Shown here piece after piece: positions 43,410 through 43,891 of a stretch of DNA of 64,000 nt. Position numbers and translations under genes: made by a program. The notes under the pieces were generated by a model that did not search any database, was not told the origin of the DNA, and saw nothing but the letters and a program-made list of their open reading frames with translations. Numbering within the stretch: the stretch's first letter is position 1; the number at the start of each line of letters is the position of its first letter. This stretch comes from Streptomyces zhihengii (GTDB lineage Bacteria; Actinomycetota; Actinomycetes; Streptomycetales; Streptomycetaceae): NCBI RefSeq assembly GCF_016919245.1, contig NZ_JAFEJA010000001.1, positions 1,860,001 to 1,924,000 of the forward strand. The letters run 5' to 3'.

Positions 43410-43501
43410 GGAGAGGTGCCCGGAGCGGCTCATCGGGGACCAGAAAAGCACTTTCAGGTCGGGCCTAAAAACCCACGCAGGTTCGAATCCTGCCCTCTCC
43501 G
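43410..43501 (+). tRNA. tRNA-Ser-like RNA copy 1 with non-canonical anticodon arm
   Basis: The acceptor stem is GGAGAGG (43410-43416) paired with CCTCTCC (43494-43500) and discriminator G43501; CCA is not encoded. The D stem is CCCG/CGGG with GCGG in the loop. The T arm is GCAGG-TTCGAAT-CCTGC (43477-43493). The variable arm is GGG-(8 nt)-CCC (43461-43474). The class II shape and sequence resemble bacterial tRNA-Ser. The anticodon arm (43438-43460) is an extended hairpin: GACC/GGTC, an A-A mismatch, GAAA/TTTC and the pentaloop AGCAC. No 7-nt loop, U33 or Ser anticodon can be drawn, so normal decoding is unlikely. Confidence 0.8.
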
Positions 43502-43539
43502 CGACACGGCCGGCACACCACCAGCCAACGTCACCACCA

Positions 43540-43631
43540 GGAGAGGTGCCCGGAGCGGCTCATCGGGGACCAGAAAAGCACTTTCAGGTCGGGCCTAAAA
43601 ACCCACGCAGGTTCGAATCCTGCCCTCTCCG
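43540..43631 (+). tRNA. tRNA-Ser-like RNA copy 2
   Basis: Identical to copy 1 over all 92 nt, with the same extended anticodon-arm hairpin and AGCAC loop. Preceded by the 38-nt repeated spacer. Confidence 0.8.
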
Positions 43632-43669
43632 CGACACGGCCGGCACACCACCAGCCAACGTCACCACCA

Positions 43670-43761
43670 GGAGAGGTGCCCGGAGCGGCTCATCGGGGAC
43701 CAGAAAAGCACTTTCAGGTCGGGCCTAAAAACCCACGCAGGTTCGAATCCTGCCCTCTCCG
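43670..43761 (+). tRNA. tRNA-Ser-like RNA copy 3
   Basis: Identical to copies 1 and 2. The exact identity of RNA and spacer suggests recent tandem amplification or gene conversion. Confidence 0.8.
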
Positions 43762-43799
43762 CGACACGGCCGGCACACCACCAGCCAACGTCACCACCA

Positions 43800-43891
43800 G
43801 GAGAGGTGCCCGGAGCGGCTCATCGGGGACCAGGAAAACACTTTCAGGTCGGGCCTAAAAACCCACGCAGGTTCGAATCCTGCCCTCTCCG
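43800..43891 (+). tRNA. tRNA-Ser-like RNA copy 4, two compatible substitutions
   Basis: Differs from copies 1-3 only in the anticodon arm. GAAA becomes GGAA (an A-U pair changes to G-U, so the helix is kept) and the loop AGCAC becomes AACAC. Both changes preserve the proposed hairpin, which supports a selected RNA structure. Acceptor, D, variable and T arms are unchanged. Confidence 0.8.

Follow-up and report, generated by a model that had tools for sequence, protein, structure and literature searches.

A tandem array of putatively non-decoding tRNA-Ser-like RNAs in an azoxy-type gene cluster of Streptomyces zhihengii

Biosynthetic pathways that depend on aminoacyl-tRNA are thought to tap the pool that serves translation. 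VlmA-type enzymes use seryl-tRNA, while seryl-tRNA synthetase (SerRS) recognises the variable arm and the acceptor of its substrate, not the anticodon. Canonical bacterial tRNA-Ser has a 7-bp acceptor, a long variable arm, G73, a D-loop GG and the T-loop TTCRAAT, all of which are shared by the RNA described here; in contrast, this RNA lacks the 7-nt anticodon loop, carries a hypervariable hairpin as its anticodon arm, is missed by ARAGORN in the window and has a D stem of 4 bp in which an extra pair is possible. A tRNA-like RNA without an anticodon is also known in tmRNA, which is aminoacylated, as is proposed for the present RNA, but differs by acting on the ribosome and carrying a reading frame.

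In valanimycin biosynthesis, serine is supplied through the VlmL/VlmA seryl-tRNA route (PMC4052509, PMC12945691), and the cluster analysed here resembles it in having a SerRS, a VlmA-type transferase, VlmH/R/B/O/J/K-like genes and a SARP; the available portions of both sources mention no dedicated tRNA. The available text of PMC4052509 has VlmJ and VlmK acting on the seryl part, and the title of one of its references names VlmI as a SARP. The diversion of Ser-tRNA into valanimycin is treated as unexplained in the available part of a 2014 review, and the use of ordinary alanyl-tRNA is proposed for the related azodyrecin pathway (PMC9379638, available portion). Non-proteinogenic tRNA-Gly isoacceptors of Staphylococcus aureus, the donors of cell-wall glycine, are likewise set aside from translation for an aminoacyl transferase; according to the accessible part of PMC4052509 they have weak EF-Tu pairs and have lost the GG at 18-19, whereas the RNA described here keeps the GG, lacks the anticodon and is tied to a natural-product cluster.

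The array and the surrounding gene cluster

The window, that is, the whole stretch of 64,000 nt analysed here, contains four tandem 92-nt RNAs at 43410-43891 with a period of 130 nt (Table 1). The first-pass annotation had described four class II copies with a hairpin in the anticodon arm, and the coordinates and the minimum free energy (MFE) fold of copy 1 bear this out; comparison of the copies also confirms that, in the anticodon arm of copy 4, one A-U pair has become G-U and one loop base is altered, with the hairpin kept. The MFE fold of copy 1 (-39.1 kcal/mol, z -2.4, with 4 of 200 shuffles equal or better) is the class II cloverleaf described earlier, with a 7-bp acceptor, a D arm, a 3-bp variable arm and a T arm with TTCGAAT. 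Its anticodon arm, GACC/A/GAAA-AGCAC-TTTC/A/GGTC, forms a hairpin of 9 nt per side with the loop AGCAC. The acceptor, D and T stems, the T-loop and the D-loop GG of canonical tRNA are all present in the window copies, as are the long variable arm and the discriminator G73, both identity traits of tRNA-Ser. The anticodon loop has 5 nt and, when redrawn with 7 nt, contains no U33, so that the canonical combination of 7-nt loop, U33 and 5-bp stem is absent.

ARAGORN reported zero tRNAs in the window, and Rfam at its gathering threshold reported nothing in the array; under a lax threshold, the tRNA model RF00005 scored 27.2 bits, below its cut-off of 29. A better fold with a normal 7-nt anticodon loop, which the first-pass annotation had named as the competing structure, was not found by ARAGORN, Rfam, redrawing of the register with a 7-nt loop and U33, or MFE folding of the arms, and a normal tRNA was rejected on these grounds. 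Also rejected were tRNA-Sec (RF01852, 21.9 bits against a gathering threshold of 47), tmRNA (RF00023, 12.9 bits against 47) and a phage element, the phage collection giving no match. No fifth copy of the RNA was found in the window's own genome (9.73 Mb), whose tRNA-Ser genes GCU, UGA, CGA and GGA were used as controls.

Table 1. Features of the window around the RNA array and of the associated gene cluster.
Feature	Position	Strand	Remarks
tRNA-Ser-like RNA, putatively non-decoding, copy 1	43410..43501	+	G73 at 43501; CCA unencoded, next base C; R1 103.4 bits
tRNA-Ser-like RNA, copy 2	43540..43631	+	identical to copy 1
tRNA-Ser-like RNA, copy 3	43670..43761	+	identical to copy 1
tRNA-Ser-like RNA, copy 4	43800..43891	+	2 changes relative to copy 1, both in the anticodon arm; R1 103.9 bits
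Three 11-nt-spaced repeats GTCAG-GTCAG-ATCAG, putative SARP-type operator, upstream of the array	43326..43352	+	likewise upstream of relatives
Promoter-like and leader region (CTGCCAATGTTGTTCTCGTGAACGGCACGGG...)	43353..43409	+	conserved among relatives
VlmA-like aminoacyl-tRNA transferase, predicted	42240..43325	-	PF09924, LPG_synthase_C
Cluster seryl-tRNA synthetase, VlmL-like	36464..37741	+	TIGR00414, 397 bits, cut-off 301.65
SARP-family regulator adjoining the array	44028..45185	+	BTAD and Trans_reg_C
Acyl-CoA-dehydrogenase-like, VlmH-like N-hydroxylase candidate	28503..29639	+	VlmH role by analogy
Flavin reductase, VlmR-like candidate	32012..32566	+	domain search
Conserved hypothetical between N-hydroxylase and reductase genes, VlmO-like candidate	31479..32015	+	conserved in 39 of 80 loci; role by analogy
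Ferritin-like AurF-type, VlmB-like candidate	32563..33546	+	AurF 26.9 bits, cut-off 29.6; homologue in locus L232 named 'VlmB-like protein'
Class III aminotransferase	29672..30973	+	domain search
Aldehyde dehydrogenase	26682..28469	+	true start probably downstream of GTCAG repeats 26701-26716
Diacylglycerol-kinase-like, VlmJ-like candidate	15870..16826	-	family per available part of PMC9379638; GTCAG repeats upstream, 16921-16947
MmgE/PrpD protein, VlmK-like candidate	13772..15745	-	family per available part of PMC9379638
Polyketide synthase	20551-26289		GTCAG/ATCAG repeats precede it, on the minus strand
Further GTCAG/ATCAG repeats before other genes	16921-16947, 26651-26716, 41869-41884, 45225-45240

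A VlmA-type pathway gene set (PF09924 transferase, N-hydroxylase, flavin reductase and VlmB/O-like genes, the names VlmB and VlmO being partly by analogy) is present around the array, in agreement with the azoxy-type context assigned to it earlier. The VlmA-like gene, read by eye, probably starts at the ATG at 43235 behind AGGAG, which would place its start 174 nt from the array. Downstream, at 49362-52929 and 56249-57133, there are genes for a butyrolactone system (ScbR-, ScbA-like) and for another SARP. GTCAG repeats at 11-nt spacing, which we take to be the SARP type of site, occur in exact form six times in the window, against 0.28 expected: before the array, before the aldehyde dehydrogenase gene, before 45314 and, in minus-strand orientation, in front of the genes for the polyketide synthase and the VlmJ-like protein. 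The occurrence of repeats before several genes, including that of the polyketide synthase, suggests one regulon and a larger cluster.

A conserved body with a hypervariable anticodon arm

A first DNA search of the genus gave matches in 65 of 392 genomes, some over the T arm only. The covariance model R1, built from 28 sequences (alignment A1), was run over the window and 80 named loci, the latter being the result of a protein scan with the window's VlmA-like neighbour. It gave 98 matches, every one at E <=4e-7 (two cut by contig ends, one containing Ns), of which 94 lie outside the window in 61 of the 80 loci; a search of other azoxy clusters for this RNA had been proposed in the first-pass annotation. 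The RNA-bearing loci belong to Streptomyces, Kitasatospora, Actinacidiphila, Allorhizocola, Actinomadura, Actinosynnema, Streptantibioticus, Rhizocola and Sphaerisporangium, together with one Streptosporangiaceae, and in Actinokineospora the RNA lies elsewhere in the genome, outside the VlmA-like locus. The gap to the background is wide, the next R1 match in the window's genome being a tRNA-Tyr at 48 bits.

Of 396 genomes sampled across the phylum, 116 gave matches at E<=1e-7, but scores above 70 bits occurred in only two, both from the window's genus. The 70-bit cut is our own choice, made because the lower scorers across the phylum score like ordinary tRNAs; among canonical tRNAs, the eight top scorers retrieved from other Actinomycetota all proved to be tRNA-Ser. 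Two relatives accepted in VlmA loci score close to this cut (L141 at 68.6 bits, L140 at 73.3), and the cut removed G047, G063, G104, G105 and G184 from 56 listed Streptomyces genomes, leaving 51. The tRNA-Ser-like RNA is thus a conserved family that stays below threshold with every Rfam model and, on comparison of sequences, the array is far beyond chance, recurring with covariation in many other genomes.

ARAGORN names some copies tRNA-Ala, -Cys, -Thr or tRNA-??? (L132, L117, L147, L225, L226), so public annotations may list such RNAs misleadingly. A lone T-arm and acceptor half lies between two full copies in L125 (14198-14224) and is probably a decayed array member. The first-pass annotation knew of no described non-decoding tRNA set dedicated to a natural product; this stands for the open-licence PMC literature, in whose titles, abstracts and passages no description of such an RNA was found; an earlier one may exist elsewhere.

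Conservation is distributed unevenly along the molecule. Averaged over pairs of sequences, identity reaches 1.00 in the 5' acceptor strand, 0.96 in the T arm and 0.83 in the D arm, and falls to 0.52 in the variable arm and 0.46 in the anticodon arm. All seven acceptor pairs are invariant in 82 distinct rows, G18 and G19 are invariant columns in A1, and G73-C74 follows the acceptor stem in complete copies. Outside the acceptor, nine pairs change on both sides, giving 34 cells, whereas shuffling gives 4.9 on average and none of 500 shuffles reached 34; because the alignment was fitted to the model, this count is biased toward structure.

The anticodon arm occurs in 91 distinct forms of 16-35 nt, which fold more stably than their shuffles (mean z -2.7; z below -1 in 82). 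Their MFE apical loops have 3 nt (13 arms), 4 nt (49), 5 nt (23), 6 nt (4) or 8 nt (2), so that 62 have 3-4 nt, and of the four-base loops 24 belong to the GNRA, UNCG or UUUU types. The arm of host tRNA-Ser (GGA), one of five host controls, also folds by MFE with a 3-nt loop, which makes MFE loop size alone a weak test. When any nearby register is allowed, 26 of the 91 arms give 4-5 pairs round a 7-nt loop, five of them with U33 and each of these with a different sequence, whereas a 7-nt loop with U33 is attainable in all five host class II controls. Comparison with relatives thus upholds both the tRNA-Ser-like body and the non-decoding arm claimed from the window, the arm being abnormal in most of them. 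Judged by predicted fold, conservation and covariation together, the usable anticodon has been lost in this family.

Linkage to VlmA-like genes and a putative seryl carrier

The array probably comprises four genes for one non-decoding RNA dedicated to carrying serine, which would be charged by SerRS (cluster or housekeeping) and used by the VlmA-like transferase. Transcription under SARP control would supply the RNAs while the azoxy pathway is active, CCA would be added, and the cluster SerRS or, in genomes that lack it, the housekeeping one would load serine onto the tRNA body with its serine-type acceptor stem and G73, long variable arm and normal D/T contacts. The VlmA-like transferase would move serine from the RNA onto a hydroxylamine. 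With the anticodon loop turned into a closed hairpin, the charged RNA would be unusable on the ribosome, and part of the serine supply would thereby be reserved for the pathway.

The tie to the local VlmA-like gene, claimed from this one locus, holds as an association across loci and genomes. The RNA lies <=700 nt upstream of the VlmA match in 50 of the 61 RNA-bearing loci (47 divergent, 3 on the same strand) and elsewhere within the locus in the remaining 11; in 16 of the 19 VlmA-like loci without it, the genome holds copies above 70 bits elsewhere, which suggests action in trans. Among 392 Streptomyces genomes, some of which are the genomes behind the 80 named loci, the RNA exceeds 70 bits in 51 and a VlmA-like match at E<=1e-60 occurs in 80, that is, in 49 of the 51 RNA-bearing against 31 of the 341 RNA-less genomes. 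The resulting table (49 with both, 2 RNA-only, 31 VlmA-only, 310 with neither) gives a Fisher p of 1.8e-38, on overlapping sets and uncorrected for kinship. In both RNA-only genomes (G168, G300), a VlmA-like gene with a weaker match (36-39 %) lies about 2.3 kb away from the RNA, so that with weaker matches counted all 51 carry a VlmA-like gene. The RNA is also present on 14 Streptomyces plasmids, and 11 of these bear a VlmA-like gene as well. The RNA family is, in these comparisons of gene content, linked with VlmA-like genes.

Some VlmA-like loci stand apart. R1 found no copy above the tRNA-Tyr level in the genomes of L077, L124 and L133, a search with filters off reached at most 16.7 bits in the RNA-less L222-L224 and L133, and there is no copy near the more distant VlmA relatives of Paraburkholderia and Embleya (at most 14 bits). 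In L222-L224, L133 and L219-L221, Rfam found no tRNA. The lack of a genomic copy above the tRNA-Tyr level for three of the 80 VlmA loci and the absence of the RNA from the clusters L222-L224 implies that it is dispensable for some VlmA-like enzymes. L219, L220 and L221 are VlmA-like clusters with another gene order and no detectable tRNA-like RNA, and possibly represent the kind of pathway for which ordinary alanyl-tRNA has been proposed as the donor.

A tRNA-like regulator or decoy, which would bind SerRS or the transferase and tune serine charging or the pathway without being a substrate, is an unlikely reading: it would predict the associations with VlmA-like genes and SerRS equally well, but the acceptor stem identical in all 82 distinct rows, followed by G73-C74 in complete copies, speaks against it, and the high copy number suits a substrate. 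In particular, a cis leader of vlmA is rejected by the dispersed copies and the mostly divergent orientation.

GTCAG repeats 11 or 22 nt apart precede 79 of 86 distinct leaders (first or solo copies), against 197 of 20000 random 140-nt windows of the same loci; with [GAC]TCAG allowed, at least two repeats at 11-nt steps occur in 86 of 89 leaders and three in 72 of 89. In some copies (L065, L198, L199, L204, L206), the leader holds an inverted repeat, e.g. GTGACCGG...CCGGTCAC, perhaps a processing or binding element.

Some genomes carry 8-15 dispersed copies, some of them on plasmids, and that of L118 (G397, S. griseofuscus) has 15 copies above 90 bits. The dispersed solo copies (G397 and others; L190-L209) stand at unrelated intergenic sites, each with its own operator-like repeats, and in G397 two pairs of copies lie about equidistant from the ends of the linear chromosome, like terminal inverted repeats. 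Such multiplication, partly plasmid-borne, is what a dispersed repeat or an attachment-site relic of a tRNA gene carried with the cluster would also produce. This origin is very improbable in view of the covariation and the invariant acceptor stem, the [GAC]TCAG repeats at 11-nt steps before 21 of 22 dispersed leaders, the location of the copies between genes in 19 of the 20 dispersed stretches retrieved and the absence, among the 392 sampled genomes, of any RNA-bearing genome without a VlmA-like gene; mobility of the unit is itself compatible with function. In ten flanks of dispersed copies, the neighbouring genes have no relation to the pathway.

For the carrier reading, serine is indicated by several features. 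The discriminator G73 is that of the four host tRNA-Ser, whereas the host Tyr and Leu controls have A73. Alanine tRNAs carry G3-U70, in place of which the window RNA has A3-U70. Of the 51 RNA-bearing Streptomyces genomes, 29 (the window's included) encode a SerRS with 58 % or more identity to that of the cluster, against 1 of 29 RNA-less VlmA-bearing ones (p 6e-7); a close homologue is absent from the other 22 of 51. The first-pass annotation had named the local SerRS as the charging enzyme, a proposal that has to be widened, since the housekeeping SerRS would often have to charge the RNA. The VlmJ- and VlmK-like genes of the cluster fit serine dehydration. Counting against serine, the best canonical R1 scorer in the window's genome is the tRNA-Tyr and not a tRNA-Ser, and VlmA relatives may use other amino acids, as with the alanine proposed for azodyrecin (PMC9379638, in its available part). 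A carrier for an amino acid other than serine nevertheless has a very low probability, given G73, A3-U70 and the SerRS, VlmJ-like and VlmK-like genes in the cluster.

A working tRNA with unusual decoding (an extended codon, a frameshift or a reassigned codon) is close to refuted. ARAGORN does assign an anticodon to some relatives (e.g. tRNA-Ala tgc in L132), but the names differ between relatives (Ala, Thr, Cys, unknown), the arms span 16-35 nt with GNRA, UNCG or UUUU tetraloops in 24 of 91, and U33 in a 7-nt loop is possible in only five.

Meaning of the proposed dedicated carrier

Taken across the family, the seryl-carrier reading would, as a likely though slightly less secure extension, define a new class of biosynthetic tRNA, with a hairpin in place of the anticodon, a spread over at least 10 named actinobacterial genera, expression within a SARP regulon, multiplication in tandem and dispersed form, and carriage of serine into azoxy products only. 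If true, it would answer how Ser-tRNA escapes translation in these azoxy pathways. The RNA would then serve as a marker when genomes are mined for serine-type azoxy clusters and could be engineered as an orthogonal seryl carrier, and it would amount to a natural experiment that tells which tRNA features are required by the synthetase and by the transferase.
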